Positions 21,910 to 39,972 of a stretch of 41,627 nt of DNA are shown here, piece after piece (positions within the stretch are counted from its first letter, which is position 1; each line of letters opens with the position of its first letter). The stretch comes from a virus. The stretch lies in the IMG/VR virus record IMGVR_UViG_3300048929_000272, positions 1 through 41,627 of that record; one strand, given 5' to 3'. The notes beneath the pieces were generated by a model. That model ran no database searches. It saw nothing but the letters and a program-made list of their open reading frames with translations, and was not told the origin of the DNA. A program made the translations under genes and the position numbers.

Positions 21910-23028
21910 TCACAGGGCCCAGGACAAGCCCTGCACTCGGGCGTACTCCAGGATGGCCGTGTGGCCTTGGGCGGTGACCTCGATGGCGAGGCGGCTGTCG
22001 GCGGTGATGCGGCCGGTGAGGTTGATGGTGCGCTTGACGAGGCTGGAGCCGTCGCCGCGGCCGTCGACCTCGACAGCACCACCAGGAACGGGGGTGCCTC
22101 CGGCGGCCGGGATGTTGAGGGTGCGGACGGACAGGTAGTCGTCGCGGGCGAGGCCGCTGAACTCCAGGTCGACCTGGAGGGTGTAGGTGGCGCCCTGGAG
22201 GAACGTGGAGCCGCCGTCGCCGTGCTGCCCAGGGCCGTCGGACGGTTCGGACGTCCAGTAGATGGTGGTGGGGATCCCGTTGATGAGGTTGAGGTCTTCG
22301 GCGCGGGTGAGCCAGGTCAGGCGGGGGTCCACGGTGTCTCCGGCGGGGGTAGTGGGGGCGGGGGGCTTCGGGGTGGTGGTGCCGGGCGTCCAGGACGCGG
22401 GATGGGCGAGCCGGTCGGCGATCCGCTGGCGCAGGCCAGGCATGCTGACAACGTTGTCGGGCCCCTTGGGATCGTCCTTCCAATCCGACCACTCCTTGTG
22501 GCCAATCGTCGACTTGGCTGTCCACTTGTGTGCCCGGCACAGGGCCGCCGACACGCGGACCATCGCCTCGACCTGCACGGCGGGCCACGGGTCGCGGCCG
22601 TCGCCCTGGTTCTCGCACTCCCAGCCGTAGAAGTGCGCGTTGCCGTCGACGGCTCCGGCGCTGCCCTGGTGCTCGGTCGGGGCTGGCGGACGGACGCCGT
22701 ACGACTCGGCCTTGACCGCGGCGAGGACGTTCGGGTCGCCGCCGCCGGCGTGGTTGGCGCGGCCGTTGCCGACGAGGTGGACGGTGCCGTCACGCCGGAT
22801 GACGCCGTGACAGAGGGGGCCGGGGAGGTCGCTGAGGCCGTCGAAGCACATGGCGACGGCGGACATGGTCTTGGGGGTGACGGTGTGGTGGAGCATGGTG
22901 CCGTTCATGGCGCCCCAGGCGCCGCGGCTGTTGCGGTTGTTGGTGCGCCACCCGGGTACCTCGATGACCTTCACCCCCTCGGCGCGGAGGGCGGCTATCA
23001 GTTGGTCGGCGGTAAGCGGCGTAGCCAT
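21910..23028 (-). CDS. endolysin: N-acetylmuramoyl-L-alanine amidase
   Basis: A 372-residue protein. The N-terminal domain (residues about 20-190) is a zinc amidase of the Amidase_2/PGRP type: LHHTV with His47-His48, ANHAG (His93), HFYGWECEN, and STIGHKEW with His177 and Asp185 placed as in T7 lysozyme. It cleaves the bond between muramic acid and L-alanine. A Thr/Pro linker follows at about 215-235. The last 135 residues are a beta-rich domain (SGLARDDYLSVRTLNIPAA, then KRTINLTGRITADSRLAIEV) likely for wall binding. No signal peptide is present, so a holin is needed. ATG 23028 has AAAGGGG upstream. Confidence 0.9.
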   Translation of the reverse strand: MATPLTADQLIAALRAEGVKVIEVPGWRTNNRNSRGAWGAMNGTMLHHTVTPKTMSAVAMCFDGLSDLPGPLCHGVIRRDGTVHLVGNGRANHAGGGDPNVLAAVKAESYGVRPPAPTEHQGSAGAVDGNAHFYGWECENQGDGRDPWPAVQVEAMVRVSAALCRAHKWTAKSTIGHKEWSDWKDDPKGPDNVVSMPGLRQRIADRLAHPASWTPGTTTPKPPAPTTPAGDTVDPRLTWLTRAEDLNLINGIPTTIYWTSEPSDGPGQHGDGGSTFLQGATYTLQVDLEFSGLARDDYLSVRTLNIPAAGGTPVPGGAVEVDGRGDGSSLVKRTINLTGRITADSRLAIEVTAQGHTAILEYARVQGLSWAL

Positions 23029-23867: not shown

Positions 23868-23901
23868 AGCCCCACCTCCCGACGTGTCAGGTGGTGGGGC
23901 T
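23868..23901 (-). terminator. terminator at end of membrane-protein island
   Basis: A nine-bp inverted repeat (agccccacc at 23868-23876, ggtggggct at 23893-23901) with a 16-base loop that can also pair partly. It lies 142 bases after the last gene of the island (stop at 24043) and upstream of the DUF4352-like gene. The 250 bases between 23793 and 24042 hold no convincing gene. Confidence 0.55.
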
Positions 23902-24042: not shown

Positions 24043-24177
24043 CTACTGCTTCTGCGGCGTGCCGGGGGTGGGTTTGTCGGCGGGTTTGACCCAGCCGCCT
24101 CGGCTGCTGCTGTACACGGTCTGGTGGCCCTTCAGGCGGGGGTCGTCGGGTGCGGGCTTGGGCTGGCGGAGTGCCAT
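24043..24177 (-). CDS. small basic hypothetical protein
   Basis: A 44-residue protein starting MALRQPKPAPDDPRLKGHQ with a good GAGGAGG site upstream of ATG 24177. The sequence is Pro- and Lys-rich with an aromatic turn (TVYSSSRGGWVKPADKP) and no recognised domain. It is the last gene of the leftward island, 11 bases after the previous stop. Confidence 0.6.
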   Translation of the reverse strand: MALRQPKPAPDDPRLKGHQTVYSSSRGGWVKPADKPTPGTPQKQ

Positions 24178-24188
24178 GGCGGGCCTCC

Positions 24189-24815
24189 TCAGGCCTTGAT
24201 GGTGTGGTGGCGGCGCTGGGTTTCGGCGGGGTCGTAGTACGTGGCTCCGTAGTCGCTGCGCTGTACACGCAACCCCTTCTCGGGCCCCTCTTCCGTCTCG
24301 TTGTTGGTGTTGGCGTTGGCAGCGTGACCTGCACAAACACAGCCGCCAGAAGGGGTGCCGCTCTCGGGGAGAGGGGCCGGGATGTCGCCGTGGTGGACGC
24401 CGGGCCCGTTACCGCCCGGGGTGCGTACCCCTCGCTTGACGGGGATGCCGGCCTCGTCGAGGAGTGCGCGGACTGCCTTCGTGTCGGGCAGCCCGGCGGC
24501 CTCCTGGAGCTGGGTCAGGCGGACGTGCTGGCCGCCCTCGCTGAGCTGCTGGAGGACGGCCACAATGTCGACGGGCTCCTGCTCGTCCGCATCGGTCTCG
24601 TCGGCGTTCTGGCGGCGCCCAGCGGCCCACGTACGGGCCCGCTGCACTCCCGCCGCAGTGATGAGCCCCGCCACGTAGTACCCGGTCTCAGGAACGGCGA
24701 CGGCGATCGTTCCGGCCGTGCCGATGGCGATGACGGCCAGGCAGCCGGCCGCAACGCGCTCCTTGCGCTGCTCCCCCGCGGCGGGCTGCTGGTCTTCGGT
24801 CTGCTGGGCGGTCAT
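24189..24815 (-). CDS. membrane protein with C-terminal winged-helix-like region
   Basis: A 208-residue protein. After an acidic N-terminus it has two hydrophobic segments (VAAGCLAVIAIGTAGTIAVA and TGYYVAGLITAAG) and a basic turn (QRARTWAAGRRQ). Then comes a cytosolic region with a helix-turn-helix-like stretch (RLTQLQEAAGLPDTKAVRAL, then LDEAGIPVKRGVRT). The C-terminal tail has a CVCAG cysteine pair. Small membrane proteins with this plan are common on actinomycete integrative elements and plasmids; function unknown. ATG 24815 overlaps the previous stop (TGATG). Co-transcribed with the two membrane-protein genes before it. Confidence 0.7.
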   Translation of the reverse strand: MTAQQTEDQQPAAGEQRKERVAAGCLAVIAIGTAGTIAVAVPETGYYVAGLITAAGVQRARTWAAGRRQNADETDADEQEPVDIVAVLQQLSEGGQHVRLTQLQEAAGLPDTKAVRALLDEAGIPVKRGVRTPGGNGPGVHHGDIPAPLPESGTPSGGCVCAGHAANANTNNETEEGPEKGLRVQRSDYGATYYDPAETQRRHHTIKA

Positions 24816-25321
24816 CAGAAGTAGCTCGTGAAGATGGCGCCAGCAGCGTTCGTGGCGGAGCCGAGGGGGATGGCCGCAATGCCTGCAACGGTGCCGGAGA
24901 GGGCGAGGAGGGCCCCGGCAAGAGCGCCGGCGGCGAGCTTGCCGCGTGGGATCTTCTTGCCGCCCCAGGCGAGGAGGCAGACGAAGACGACGGTGAGGAG
25001 GAACAGGATCACGTAGCCGCCGGGTTCGATGGCGATGGGGACGGCTCGGGTGACGTTGCGGTCGGTTCCTCCGACTCCCCAGACGAGGCCGACGTATCCG
25101 GCGAGGTTGCCTGCCCAGATGGCCAGCCAGGCGACGGCGCCGAGGGCGGAGACGGAGTTGTAGGCAGAGATGGCGGCGAGCATCCCGTAGAGGAGGGCAA
25201 AGACGAACGGGATCAGGGCAATCCAGCTCCGGCCTTCTTTGAGCCACCAGCGGACGACGAAGGCGGCGATGACGGCGAACCCAACGGCAATCCCGCCGAG
25301 GCTGATCACGGTGTACGGCAT
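24815..25321 (-). CDS. polytopic membrane protein
   Basis: A 168-residue protein with about five hydrophobic segments: VISLGGIAVGFAVIAAFVV, WIALIPFVFALLYGMLAAI, LGAVAWLAIWAGNLAGYVGL, YVILFLLTVVFVCLLAW and a last Ala/Gly-rich segment (AAGALAGALLALSGTVAGIA). No catalytic motif is visible. It is coupled on both sides (TGATG). It has a Lys/Arg turn (WGGKKIPRGK) after the fourth segment, consistent with cytosolic placement. No family is recognised; it resembles small membrane proteins found near Spd-type genes of actinomycete plasmids only in general plan. Confidence 0.7.
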   Translation of the reverse strand: MPYTVISLGGIAVGFAVIAAFVVRWWLKEGRSWIALIPFVFALLYGMLAAISAYNSVSALGAVAWLAIWAGNLAGYVGLVWGVGGTDRNVTRAVPIAIEPGGYVILFLLTVVFVCLLAWGGKKIPRGKLAAGALAGALLALSGTVAGIAAIPLGSATNAAGAIFTSYF

Positions 25322-26184
25322 CAGTTGTATCCCCCAGTCAGGCGGCGGGCTTTGCGGACGGCGGCGGCCACGGATTCCTTCTCGGCGCTCGGGAGGATCG
25401 CGAGAATCGCTCGGGTGGCATCTCGGTTATCGGGGTGGATCGCGACTTGCTCGCGGGCGAGATCGGCGATGCTCTTCTGCTCGCGATCGGTGTTCGTGCT
25501 GGTCGCGGGCGGGTCGGCGGGGATGCTGGTGAACAGGGAGCCGAGTTTGCTCGCGCCGGCGATCGGGGTCTGCTCGGGGGTGATCGGGGCGATCGCGATC
25601 GGTGTTCGGCGGCCGATCTCGGCTCGCATCTCCAGCCTGTCGAGGGTGATCTCGAAGTCGGCGCGGTCGCGGGCGGCGGTGATCCTGGCCTCCTGCCGGA
25701 TGCGCTCGATCACCGCGTTCGCTTCCTGCTGGACGAGGTCGCGCTGCGCCCCGTTGAGACGGGACTGGCGTTCGCCCTCGCGGATGACGTCGTTGATTTC
25801 GGCCTCCTGCTCGGCCGTGAGCGCGGCGGGGTCGCGCATGGCGAGGAGGGCGAACTGGGCGACGGTCTTGCCAACGAGGACAACGAACGGGCCGGCGATG
25901 GCCTGGCCGAGGTCGTGGGCGAGGGCGCCGTGGAGGACGAGGAGCGCGCCGACCATGAGGGCGATGGCCCAGCCCGCGATGGTGGCATAGCGGCCGCCGA
26001 GCCCGCGGTGTTCGGCCCACATGACGGTGATCCAGCCGATGTCGCCGGCGAGGGCGACGGAGAGGCCGAACCAGCCGCTGTTGATGAGGTCGGTGATGGC
26101 GTAGCCGGACCAGATGAGGGAGAGGCCGGCGAGGGCGTATGCGCCGTAGAGGATGGGGGGCGCGCTGGGCTGGCGCAGGTTCAT
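25321..26184 (-). CDS. membrane protein with cytosolic coiled coil (DUF2637/Spd-like plan)
   Basis: A 287-residue protein. Residues about 10-115 carry four hydrophobic segments (GAYALAGLSLIWSGYAI, LSVALAGDIGWITVMW, GWAIALMVGALLVLHGAL and AGPFVVLVGKTVAQFALLA). A long charged helix follows (EAEINDVIREGERQSRLNG, VIERIRQEARITAARDRADF), likely a cytosolic coiled coil. The end (REQVAIHPDNRDATRAIL then an Arg/Lys-rich helix) looks like a small DNA- or protein-binding unit. The four-segment-plus-helix layout recalls DUF2637/Spd membrane proteins from actinomycete plasmids and phages, but I cannot confirm the family. ATG 26184 overlaps the stop before it (ATGA). Confidence 0.7.
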   Translation of the reverse strand: MNLRQPSAPPILYGAYALAGLSLIWSGYAITDLINSGWFGLSVALAGDIGWITVMWAEHRGLGGRYATIAGWAIALMVGALLVLHGALAHDLGQAIAGPFVVLVGKTVAQFALLAMRDPAALTAEQEAEINDVIREGERQSRLNGAQRDLVQQEANAVIERIRQEARITAARDRADFEITLDRLEMRAEIGRRTPIAIAPITPEQTPIAGASKLGSLFTSIPADPPATSTNTDREQKSIADLAREQVAIHPDNRDATRAILAILPSAEKESVAAAVRKARRLTGGYN

Positions 26185-26336
26185 CGGTTCCTCTGCTTGT
26201 CCATCTCGGCGCGGATGGGGGCGGCGTTGGTGTAGTCGCGGGCGCAGTCGGCGTGGGTGGTGGGGGTGGCGAAGATGGGGTTGTCCCGCGGGGTGTAGTC
26301 GGGCTCGGGGGCGGGTTCGTAGGTGGGGGTGTCCAT
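26181..26336 (-). CDS. small hypothetical protein
   Basis: A 51-residue protein with an acidic, Pro-rich start (MDTPTYEPAPEPDYTPRDNP) and a short helix end (CARDYTNAAPIRAEMDKQRN). ATG 26336 and its stop both overlap the neighbouring genes by one to four bases, so it is translated in a coupled row. The function is unknown. Confidence 0.6.
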   Translation of the reverse strand: MDTPTYEPAPEPDYTPRDNPIFATPTTHADCARDYTNAAPIRAEMDKQRNR

Positions 26337-26644
26337 CAGGCGCTCCACGAGGTCTTGTGGAGCCAGAGGGCGTACTCGCCGCGGGTGACGGCCTTGCCGT
26401 CGACGAACGGCATGCGGCGGAGCAGCTGGCGTTCCAGCTCGACGGTTGCGTCGATGTCGTGGGGGTGGGTCGTGTTGGCGTAGTCGCGGGCGGCGGCGTG
26501 GCGCTGGTAGGCGTCCATGAGGCGGCCGGGCTCGGTGTGGGTGAGCTCGTGGGCGATGTGGCGGAGGCCGTCGCGGATGGAGGCGTCGAGACGGACGCGA
26601 CGCAGGGCTTCGTCGGCTTCGGGCTGGCTTGTACGCTCGGGCAT
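26336..26644 (-). CDS. first gene of membrane-protein island; helical hypothetical protein
   Basis: A 102-residue protein starting MPERTSQPEADEALRRVR at ATG 26644, with GGAGAAGG upstream. It is mainly helical and rich in Arg and His (IRDGLRHIAHELTHTEPG, YQRHAAARDYANTTHPHD), with an end section (AVTRGEYALWLHKTSW). The His-Glu-Leu-Thr-His string looks like a metalloprotease motif (HExxH) but lacks the rest of such a domain; the match is probably chance. It is the first gene after the divergent promoter at 26.75 kb. Confidence 0.65.
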   Translation of the reverse strand: MPERTSQPEADEALRRVRLDASIRDGLRHIAHELTHTEPGRLMDAYQRHAAARDYANTTHPHDIDATVELERQLLRRMPFVDGKAVTRGEYALWLHKTSWSA

Positions 26645-26675
26645 GGCCTTCTCCTGTCGTGTGCAGGGGTGGGCT

Positions 26676-26710
26676 GGCCCCGGTCGGGCTCTGACACACC
26701 GACCGGGGCC
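26676..26710 (-). promoter_or_regulatory. hairpin in leader of the leftward island transcript
   Basis: A perfect 12-bp inverted repeat (ggccccggtcgg at 26676-26687, ccgaccggggcc at 26699-26710) with an 11-base loop, lying between the leftward promoter and the first gene at 26644. It could be an attenuator or a partial terminator keeping the membrane genes low. There is no T run. Confidence 0.6.
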
Positions 26711-26735
26711 GTCTTGCATCAGCAGTGCTGACTGC

Positions 26736-26765
26736 TTGCTGCCAATGTATGGGAGCCCATACACT
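26736..26765 (+). promoter_or_regulatory. rightward promoter for regulator gene
   Basis: A -35 like TTGCTG at 26736-26741 and a -10 like TACACT at 26760-26765, 18 bases apart. The expected start is near 26772, ahead of the GTG at 26799. The -10 overlaps the 18-bp palindrome (26746-26763). Confidence 0.65.
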
Positions 26766-26773
26766 CGGCGCAA
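26744..26773 (-). promoter_or_regulatory. leftward promoter for membrane-protein island
   Basis: On the minus strand, a -35 like TTGCGC (26773-26768) and a -10 like TACATT (26749-26744) lie 18 bases apart. The two divergent promoters overlap almost entirely and share the palindromic operator, so one bound regulator could control both directions. Confidence 0.65.
26746..26763. promoter_or_regulatory. 18-bp palindromic operator
   Basis: TGTATGGG, two-base centre AG, CCCATACA: a perfect eight-bp inverted repeat. It covers the -10 of the rightward promoter and lies between the -35 and -10 of the leftward one. Palindromes like this bind dimeric helix-turn-helix regulators. The adjacent rightward gene (26799-27113) is the natural candidate to bind it. 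Confidence 0.75.
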
Positions 26774-26798
26774 GCGGCATGCCTAAGAAAGGGATGGC

Positions 26799-27113
26799 GT
26801 GACCGAGGAGCCGATCGAAGAGGAGGCGCAGCGCGTGTTCGATGCCCTTGATGCAGTCGAGGAGATGGGCGACCCCGTGGCGCGGGCGCGCGTGATTGGG
26901 CGCTTGCTCAAGGATCACGTGGGGCGCAACAAGCGGTTCACGGAGTACCGCCGGCAGGTTGTGCTGGAGATGCGGGCGCAGGATCCGCCGGTGCCTTATC
27001 GCCGAATCGCGGCCGAGCTGGGTGTGTCCCTGGGTACGGTGCAGGACATTGAGCGTGGGTCGGCTCGTTGGTCGTCTCGTAGGGATAAGGCGGATCCTCC
27101 AGCTTCCGAGTAG
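26799..27113 (+). CDS. helix-turn-helix regulator of the island
   Basis: A 104-residue protein on the plus strand, opposite to its neighbours. GTG start at 26799, with AAAGGGA nine bases upstream. Residues 1-60 are helical and acidic to basic (FDALDAVEEMGDPVARARVI, KRFTEYRRQVVLEMRAQ). Residues 67-87 form a helix-turn-helix (YRRIAAELGVSLGTVQDIER), and the tail is basic. Its own promoter overlaps the operator facing the membrane-protein genes, the standard layout for an autoregulated repressor. It ends just before a strong bidirectional terminator. A role as the island's switch is inferred. Confidence 0.8.
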   Translation: MTEEPIEEEAQRVFDALDAVEEMGDPVARARVIGRLLKDHVGRNKRFTEYRRQVVLEMRAQDPPVPYRRIAAELGVSLGTVQDIERGSARWSSRRDKADPPASE

Positions 27114-27116
27114 CGC

Positions 27117-27153
27117 AAAGCCCCCGTTCCGGTTGATTCCGGACGGGGGCTTT
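27117..27153. terminator. strong bidirectional terminator
   Basis: Stem AAAGCCCCCGT(T)CCGG / CCGGACGGGGGCTTT with one bulged base and a six-base loop, with A and T runs at the ends. It terminates the rightward regulator gene (stop at 27113) and, on the other strand, the leftward early operon (last stop at 27187). It thereby insulates the island from early transcription. Confidence 0.9.
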
Positions 27154-38560: not shown

Positions 38561-38600
38561 ATTGGCGAGATGCTTACCGAAGTGACAGCGCTTTGGGGCA

Positions 38601-38639
38601 GTTGCTGGTCAGGGGTCCGTATGGGTGCTGACCAGCAAC
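38601..38639. repeat. 12-bp inverted repeat downstream of integrase
   Basis: Perfect arms at 38601-38612 and 38628-38639 with a 15-base centre, 40 bases after the integrase stop. It could be the terminator of int or part of attP (a core with flanking integrase sites). There is no T run directly after it. Confidence 0.6.
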
Positions 38640-38718
38640 GGAACGTCTTTCATAGCCTTTCTTTGGTTGTCGTGACCCGTCGTGAACGTACGGAAGGATG
38701 CCGGAATCTGGGGTGCCA

Positions 38719-38740
38719 CCGGAACGCTTCCGGAACGCTT
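38719..38740. repeat. tandem 11-bp direct repeat in attP region
   Basis: ccggaacgctt occurs twice back to back at 38719-38729 and 38730-38740. One helical turn spacing suggests protein binding. Integrase arm sites are often short direct repeats like these. Confidence 0.5.
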
Positions 38741-38793
38741 CGGTACCTCTGACCGGCTGGAACTTCCGCATCGACGGGTACAGGGAAGGCCAC

Positions 38794-38824
38794 GGGCTCG
38801 ATCCTCAGCGAGAGGATCGAGCCC
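38794..38824. terminator. strong terminator in attP region
   Basis: A perfect 13-bp inverted repeat (38794-38806, 38812-38824) with a five-base loop and a tttcgt tail. It ends rightward transcription from int before the next gene. It also lies inside the longest open frame of the following gene, which supports the shorter start used there. Confidence 0.85.
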
Positions 38825-38898
38825 TTTCGTTGCGCACCAACGCAAAAGCGGCCACTTGGGTACTGACTGACAAGATCACGCACCCAACCTTTGGGGGC

Positions 38899-39156
38899 GT
38901 GCCGACACGAAGAGCCCCACTCCCCGTCTGGGTCCTAGACCAGCGCAGGGAGCTCGGGGAGAACATCGCCCGCTACCGCAAGGAAGCAGGCTTATCGCAA
39001 GACCAGCTAGCCGACCGCATCGGAAAGGAACGACGAAGCGTCCAGCGCTACGAACGAGGAGAACGAGACCCCAGTTTCTCCGACCTCGTTCTCATCGCCC
39101 ACGGCCTGGACGTCGCCCTCGAAACACTCGTGAAGATGCCCCCGGCCGGGAGATAG
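38899..39156 (+). CDS. XRE-family HTH protein with TTA codon, next to attP
   Basis: An 85-residue protein. GTG 38899 is preferred over a start 67 codons earlier because a strong terminator lies in that longer frame. The HTH is complete (ARYRKEAGLSQDQLADRIGK, then RRSVQRYERGERDP), with a following helix (DLVLIAHGLDVALETLVK). The codon for Leu in AGLSQ is TTA at 38992-38994. In Streptomyces TTA depends on the developmentally regulated bldA tRNA; it is rare in phage and host genes. Role as a second regulator of lysogeny is inferred; it could also be captured from a host. Confidence 0.75.
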   Translation: MPTRRAPLPVWVLDQRRELGENIARYRKEAGLSQDQLADRIGKERRSVQRYERGERDPSFSDLVLIAHGLDVALETLVKMPPAGR

Positions 39157-39168
39157 CCGGCCGGGGGC
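39138..39168 (+). terminator. terminator overlapping the stop of the attP-side HTH gene
   Basis: A perfect 12-bp GC inverted repeat (39138-39149, 39157-39168) with a seven-base loop that contains the TAG stop. Together with the convergent gene pair beyond, it blocks read-through from either side. Confidence 0.85.
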
Positions 39169-39217
39169 AGATGCCCTGCTCGTCCATGGCCCGCCGTGGG
39201 CACGGGCGAGCAGGAGT

Positions 39218-39397
39218 TCAGATGCGCCTGAGACGGCGCTGTAGCGGCGAGGTCGCGAGCCGCTCCTCTTTGGCTGCCGTGCAACCCGTGGCCGTTGGGT
39301 GCAGGTACACGGTCGGCTTCGCGCCCGACATCGCCTCTGGTGCGATCTCCCGGGCTTCCCCTTCGATGGGGTACCCACAGGACTGGCAGCGCTTCAC
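39218..39397 (-). CDS. small zinc-ribbon protein
   Basis: A 59-residue protein with GTG start at 39397 (GTGA). It begins KRCQSCGYPIEGEAREIAPE, a Cys-x-x-Cys ribbon half, with one more Cys in ATGCTAAKEERL. Proteins with this Cys-x-x-Cys-Gly-x-Pro-Ile-Glu-Gly-Glu pattern are frequent on actinomycete mobile elements and phages; function unknown. It forms a two-gene leftward unit with the gene upstream. Confidence 0.75.
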   Translation of the reverse strand: MKRCQSCGYPIEGEAREIAPEAMSGAKPTVYLHPTATGCTAAKEERLATSPLQRRLRRI

Positions 39398-39567
39398 CGG
39401 AAGGCCCCCGTCCTGTGGCAGGGGCAGAAGCACCAGCGAGGGATGACCTCTTCCCCATCGGCCACCACAGGCCCGGGGAAGCACACTCGGTGCCCGTAAT
39501 CGAGCTTGCAGTAGCCCGAGGTCTTGATGCCTGTACTCGCCTGAGGCGGCGGGGTAGCGTGAGCCAT
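39394..39567 (-). CDS. small Cys/His protein
   Basis: A 57-residue protein with ATG 39567 and GGGAGG upstream. It has a polar start (MAHATPPPQASTGIKTSG) and Cys/His residues (YCKLDYGHRVC, then RWCFCPCHR), likely a zinc ribbon. It is coupled to the zinc-ribbon gene after it. Function unknown; small metal proteins near attP are often regulatory. Confidence 0.7.
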   Translation of the reverse strand: MAHATPPPQASTGIKTSGYCKLDYGHRVCFPGPVVADGEEVIPRWCFCPCHRTGAFR

Positions 39568-39606
39568 GACGAGACCTCCCGAGGGTGTCGTCCGTACCCC
39601 CGGACC

Positions 39607-39684
39607 GGTCGCACGGTCGCGGGGGTCTGTCATACCCCAGTGTGGTCTACCGGGGTCTACCGCACCATACTGCGGTCGCACGGT
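39607..39684. promoter_or_regulatory. operator region of GntR-type gene
   Basis: The 144-base space between the two divergent genes holds several repeats. GGTCGCACGGT occurs twice (39607-39617, 39674-39684). GGTCTACCG occurs twice with a 10-base period (39644, 39654). ACCGCA at 39659 pairs with TGCGGT at 39671. Such an arrangement fits binding of the adjacent GntR-type protein, with control of both divergent genes. No convincing promoter was fixed. Confidence 0.6.
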
Positions 39685-39711
39685 GTATCGCAGCTACCTA
39701 GCGTCATCCGA

Positions 39712-39972
39712 ATGAGTACCGATCTTGACCGCACCCGCCCTGTATGGCGGCAGATCGCCGCGGTGATTGAAACACGCATCGCCGACGGGACGTACCCCGT
39801 CGGCAGTCGCGTCCCATCTGTCGTTGAGCTGTCCGCAGAGTTCGGGGTCGCAGCGTCCACTGCACAAAAGGTCATGGCCCATCTGAAAATGGAAGGCCAT
39901 GTCCGTACCGAGGTTGGCCTCGGCACGTTCGTGTCCCGGCTACCCGAGGCGCCTACTTCCGCGGGTCAGTGA
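39712..39972 (+). CDS. GntR-type regulator lacking effector domain
   Basis: An 86-residue protein with ATG 39712; no ribosome site is visible, so the transcript may be leaderless. It holds only the GntR winged helix: WRQIAAVIETRIADGTYPVG, then SVVELSAEFGVAASTAQKVM and HLKMEGHVRTEVGLGTFV. The C-terminal effector domain of full-length GntR proteins is missing. The closest parallel is Kor-type repressors of actinomycete plasmids. It lies between the attP side and the late holin, with a repeat-rich upstream region. Its target is unknown. Confidence 0.85.
   Translation: MSTDLDRTRPVWRQIAAVIETRIADGTYPVGSRVPSVVELSAEFGVAASTAQKVMAHLKMEGHVRTEVGLGTFVSRLPEAPTSAGQ

Follow-up and report, generated by a model that had tools for sequence, protein, structure and literature searches.

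A block of membrane-protein genes with its own divergently transcribed regulator, which separates the early operon of a phage genome from its endolysin gene, raises the question of what such genes do there. The block lies at positions 24043-27153 of IMG/VR virus record IMGVR_UViG_3300048929_000272, which was analyzed over its whole length of 41,627 bases (the window). A first-pass annotation had described one rightward helix-turn-helix (HTH) gene and six leftward genes, and all of the named open reading frames (ORFs) are present where they had been placed, with good codon scores and overlapping starts and stops. The rightward gene (26799-27113, plus strand) encodes a 104-residue HTH regulator (family A1). 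The leftward genes, all on the minus strand and named here for the length of their products in residues, are read in the order S102 (26336-26644), a small soluble protein; S51 (26181-26336), a small protein; M287 (25321-26184), a membrane protein; M168 (24815-25321), a multi-pass membrane protein; M208 (24189-24815), a membrane-anchored protein with a putative winged HTH; and S44 (24043-24177), a small protein with the motif YxxSRGGW.

A conserved cassette shared among phages

Relatives were fetched with two queries, the 287-residue protein and the HTH regulator, and the fetched loci (given L numbers below) were compared by gene calling and iterated hidden Markov models (HMMs). The cassette (24043-26644 plus the regulator gene at 26799-27113) was found in Streptomyces viral contigs, in prophages of named genomes, in phage TurkishDelight and on plasmid pSITFR-21c. 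Its recurring order is a divergent HTH gene, one or more small proteins, a protein with four transmembrane (TM) segments, often a short two-TM protein, a multi-pass protein, a protein that combines TM and winged-HTH parts, and a tiny protein; this gene order and these families repeat in unrelated loci, far beyond what is expected by chance. Across 25 non-redundant cassettes, the M208 family was present in 23, M287 and the HTH regulator in 17 each, S102 in 15, M168 in 13, S44 in 11 and S51 in 6, counts that describe this set and not natural frequencies, since the set was partly picked by the same queries. Almost all loci retrieved with the HTH regulator have its gene in divergent orientation to the cassette, and in loci with a related terminase, provided that they extend far enough, the endolysin gene is in most cases preceded by the cassette or by a form of it with swapped parts. 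The S102 family is duplicated in some cassettes (L005:3088-3342, L026:1692-2605).

When single proteins were compared with public phages by tblastn, the 287-residue and 168-residue proteins had no match, and TurkishDelight was the sole match for the 208-residue and HTH proteins. TurkishDelight gp91-gp101 is the same module, with a divergent HTH gene (gp91), small proteins, homologues of M287 (gp97) and M208 (gp100) and a symmetric operator, although it has diverged and carries another multi-pass protein in the place of M168; its products are annotated as nothing more than membrane or hypothetical proteins. We conclude that the cassette is real and conserved, that it is probably mobile, and that it is not unique to this virus.

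Kinship of the 287-residue protein with plasmid SpdB

The membrane proteins had been said to resemble plasmid Spd proteins in plan, and for one of them, M287, profile comparisons and sequence identity raise this likeness to homology. An HMM of phage-type M287 proteins, from which pIJ101 was left out, scores SpdB of that conjugative Streptomyces plasmid at 28 bits (E about 1e-4 per million sequences), which is higher than its score for several positional equivalents from other cassettes. When 16 viral and phage-plasmid proteins were compared with pIJ101-type SpdB by hhalign, the probability was 97.5% (E 5.9e-12) over 135 columns covering all four membrane helices, and negative controls with M168 and M208 gave 0.1% and 0.5%. 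Residues D48, W51, E58, G71, H85 and K106 are invariant in the joint M287/SpdB alignment. A second line of evidence, and the stronger one, is a chain of homologues by way of phage-plasmids: tblastn found direct M287 homologues on Streptomyces plasmids of at least 85 kb, and M287 is 34% identical over 204 residues to a protein of the pCQ4 tra operon. Judged by these comparisons, the 287-residue protein is a homologue of the pIJ101 spread protein SpdB. Among 199 Streptomyces genomes sampled, 40 have relatives of the SpdB-type protein. The membrane domain of this type is not named by any family, either in Pfam and NCBIfam searches of the cassette and plasmid SpdB proteins or in Pfam searches of the viral SpdB relatives.

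An AlphaFold model of M287, built from 19 sequences (mean pLDDT 77), shows membrane helices at residues 10-34, 38-59, 64-88 and 92-117, a 70-residue helix at 124-193, a low-confidence linker and then a confident three-helix C-terminal domain at 239-283. This model confirms and refines the first-pass annotation, in which one membrane protein had four hydrophobic segments and one a long cytosolic coiled coil. Pfam HTH matches were found in at least three M287 relatives, C-terminal where they were located, and the C-terminal domain of M287 is a putative DNA-binding domain. The pIJ101 protein, which has relatives annotated 'protein spdB', is like M287 in its four-helix membrane domain, its length (291 versus 287 residues), its extended region and its C-terminal domain, and its gene, too, has genes for small proteins around it and a divergent regulator close by. 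However, pIJ101 has its own TraB adjacent and a GntR-type regulator, whereas in the phage cassette the regulator belongs to an unrelated HTH family, TraB is missing and two other membrane proteins are present. One SpdB homologue (L023:7773-9146, with an identical copy in L012) carries a T5orf172/MUG113 (GIY-YIG-like) domain between its membrane part and its C-terminal domain.

The plasmid homologues stand in transfer loci. On phage-plasmid pCQ4 the gene for the M287 homologue immediately precedes traA and traB, and a terminase gene follows at a greater distance; phage-plasmid pSAM1 has a similar arrangement. The tra operons of both plasmids are like the cassette in that the M287 homologue follows small ORFs and lies opposite a divergent regulator, but pCQ4 has traA-traB and pSAM1 a transfer ATPase after the M287 homologue, and neither plasmid has a homologue of M168, M208 or the HTH family. 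Their divergent regulators are of GntR type, and the HMM of the cassette regulator had no match to the GntR proteins of pCQ4 and pSAM1. In two IMG/VR contigs (L007 and L009), each of which also has a phage capsid or terminase gene, a regulator of the cassette's HTH family and an M287 homologue are accompanied, two genes past the latter, by a TraB-like FtsK/SpoIIIE protein whose C terminus bears an HTH; these ATPases (L007:9175-11130 and L009:7465-9396) match the pIJ101-type TraB HMM with E values of 3e-9 and 9e-14. Because some viral contigs keep an SpdB homologue by a TraB-type pump, phages, phage-plasmids and conjugative plasmids are joined in one evolutionary set.

Two observations concern the same elements. 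The L007 and L009 contigs appear to hold a fuller transfer operon within phage-like sequence. Plasmid pSITFR-21c (L019, L097), which is typed as non-mobilizable, has major capsid, minor head and ParB genes in addition to the cassette and looks like a phage-plasmid.

The other two membrane proteins are less readily placed. The model of M168 has six helices and is of moderate confidence (pLDDT 69); the protein matches phrog_16379 (E 5e-14), and the model had no match by fold in the PDB. M208 has a hydrophobic N-terminal region and matches phrog_34550 (E 4e-21). A winged-helix-like tail had been noted in one of the membrane proteins; M208 has a weak winged-HTH match to HTH_IclR (E 9e-4), which falls below the cut-off. 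The idea that M208 is a relic of the C-terminal winged helix of TraB was rejected when a profile comparison proved negative.

Membrane helices followed by a C-terminal HTH-like domain, as in M287, are also found in phiC31 gp25 and in DUF2637-type actinophage proteins. A Foldseek comparison with viral models gave phiC31 gp25 a probability of 1.0 with a weak E value (0.012), and DUF2637 proteins had high probabilities with weak E values. However, the cassette HMMs had no sequence match to these proteins and no comparable cassette surrounds them; we take the resemblance, on these models, as probably one of shared architecture only. The phiC31 genes gp21-gp28 and gp32 were also considered as a version of the same cassette and rejected, since no HMM match was obtained.

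The divergent switch and its flanking hairpins

The 104-residue regulator has weak matches to HTH_23, Trp_repressor and Sigma70_r4, and its family is conserved, with the signature VSLGTVQDIERG shared among 14 aligned members. The candidate operator at 26746-26763 reads TGTATGGG-AG-CCCATACA. It had been reported as a perfect 18-bp palindrome, which is incorrect: two perfect 8-bp arms flank a 2-bp AG centre that is not palindromic. The operator occurs once in the window, even if three mismatches are allowed, and the dyad taken alone is modestly unlikely (P about 0.014 in shuffles). Its conservation was tested in 29 non-redundant upstream regions, with dyad arms of at least 7 bp and 200 shuffle trials. 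A dyad was present upstream of the regulator in 23 of the 29 loci, compared with a mean of 1.8 and a maximum of 7 in the shuffles, and many of these dyads are variants in which the symmetry is retained. The arms covary between loci (TGTATGGG/CCCATACA, GTATGCCA/TGGCATAC, GTATGGCA/TGCCATAC, TTACGGGA/TCCCGTAA and GTAGGGG/CCCCTAC), and because they change together they provide good evidence of selection on a protein-binding dyad. We regard the conservation in 23 of 29 loci as decisive for the dyad, which is a candidate binding site.

The operator overlaps two putative promoters, a rightward one (TTGCTG-18-TACACT; 26736-26765, plus strand) and a leftward one (TTGCGC-18-TACATT; 26744-26773, minus strand). 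These mirror each other across the operator, so that a bound protein would be expected to cover both -10 elements. The boxes of the overlapping divergent promoters proposed in the first-pass annotation can thus be read by eye, but a consensus scan of the window found no sigma-70 promoter above threshold. A similar qualification applies to the terminators that were proposed to isolate the unit. The bidirectional hairpin at the boundary between the cassette and the early operon (27117-27153; -35.5 kcal/mol, z -7.4) and the hairpin 3' of the cassette (23868-23901, minus strand; -32.3 kcal/mol, z -5.5) are both strong and are likely terminators, but their T runs are short and the same scan found no T-tailed terminator above threshold. 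The conserved module, the cassette-specific conserved operator and the flanking hairpins support the earlier description of a self-contained cassette of membrane proteins under separate regulation.

A further strong hairpin (26676-26710, minus strand; leader fold z -4.0), for which Rfam gave no match, is found in the leftward operon's leader. Similar G+C hairpins, often followed by CTTTG, are found at the same place in most relatives. In four loci (L003:4070-4303, L005:2240-2464, L006:7114-7347 and L112:4245-4517) the regulator is swapped for a different protein of 74-90 residues (MVSFRELARRLV...), so that the switch, too, is exchangeable.

Possible roles of the cassette in the mycelium

Streptomyces plasmids need three to six spd genes to form pocks, and SpdB2 of pSVH1, a membrane protein that forms oligomers, binds double-stranded DNA and interacts with TraB (PMC4170104). 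According to PMC5133688, Spd proteins come together with TraB in vegetative septa. The homology of M287 follows from the comparisons above; the function that we infer from it is that the cassette products form an SpdB-type membrane complex that handles DNA, is controlled by a switch of its own and moves or holds phage DNA in the mycelium, a proposal to which we give slightly less than an even chance. The 104-residue HTH protein would bind the operator at 26746-26763 and shut both overlapping promoters, and the cassette would thereby be autoregulated, apart from the phage repressor. M287 and M208 would hold DNA at the membrane through their putative cytosolic DNA-binding domains, with M168 as their membrane partner, and phage or excised prophage DNA would be helped to move or stay across the septa of the multicellular host. 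Because this phage has no FtsK/TraB pump, that of the host or of a plasmid would be used. A bolder version, which we consider doubtful, is that temperate phages of Streptomyces have a machine of their own for spreading DNA within the mycelium, plasmid-derived or plasmid-shared, through which phage DNA crosses septa into adjacent compartments without virions, by a non-lytic route of infection, and of which M168 and M208 would be new parts.

Several results weigh against an SpdB-type complex. Among the called proteins of the window, neither a TraB-like ATPase nor a Walker A motif was found. TRS-type octamers (GACCCGGA type) are at chance level, with 3 scattered copies versus 4.3 expected, although TRS may differ between elements. 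No plasmid relative was detected for M208 or M168, the constant members of the cassette. The SpdB slot is filled by a soluble HTH protein in L010:3726-4142 and L112:4959-5477 and by a different, unrelated-looking four-TM protein in L109:5038-5787 and L114:4635-5462, so that SpdB is not a constant part. Finally, Spd function is itself only partly understood.

That a soluble HTH protein can occupy the SpdB slot would suit a membrane tether for the maintenance of a prophage or phage-plasmid, in which DNA is anchored to the membrane or nucleoid and inherited by hyphal branches and spores with no active spread. Two cassette proteins have both membrane segments and putative DNA-binding domains on the cytosolic side, which is consistent with such a tether, as is the presence of the cassette with ParB and capsid genes in pSITFR-21c, and a work cited in PMC4170104 is credited there with the finding that spdB2 stabilises plasmid SLP2. 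We nevertheless consider a tether unlikely, because the virus has an integrase and an integrated prophage would not need partition, and because the homologues in pCQ4 and in L007 and L009 accompany a TraB pump, which favours transfer. Superinfection or plasmid-entry exclusion, in which the lysogen's membrane proteins keep out phage DNA or conjugative plasmids and the SpdB homologue acts as a decoy, would account for separately regulated membrane proteins between flanking hairpins, as expected of a moron expressed by a lysogen; it is quite improbable, however, given that no known exclusion family was matched in Pfam, PHROGs or NCBIfam and that a C-terminal DNA-binding domain is not required for it. 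Lysogen fitness, another role suggested in the first-pass annotation, is neither favoured nor contradicted by these results. In this lineage the endolysin gene comes directly after the cassette, but holin-like accessories of the lysis region, read with the late genes, are a most improbable explanation in view of the conserved regulator and operator, the hairpin ahead of the late genes, the putative cytosolic DNA-binding domains, the match of M287 to SpdB and not to holins, and the lack of an annotated endolysin in the examined stretches of TurkishDelight and pSITFR-21c. The cassette genes are not an ordinary lysis or tail set, as none of their proteins has a significant match to a lysis or tail family.

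SpdB-type DNA-spread proteins are already known, and the novelty lies in finding one among new partners within a self-regulated phage cassette; the PMC literature, within the limits of that library, yielded no account of phage-encoded Spd proteins. Streptomyces conjugative plasmids use Spd proteins to spread through mycelium, and a review asks if the spread of a phage infection is restricted by membranous compartments (PMC5133688). A conserved, self-regulated phage cassette with an SpdB homologue makes this question directly testable by deletion, and it offers a first lead for M168 and M208, unannotated families carried by many prophages.

By cassette and terminase, the nearest relatives of the virus are Streptomyces prophages and Streptomyces-like viral contigs. 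The terminase and the late genes downstream of it run leftward in the window, as does the early operon (about 36.1 to 27.2 kb), and the cassette sits between this operon and an Amidase_2 endolysin gene (21910-23028). A rightward HTH gene and a tyrosine integrase gene are at 36.6-38.6 kb, and the ∼1.4 kb past the integrase (38561-39952), which has no called gene, is possibly the attachment-site region.

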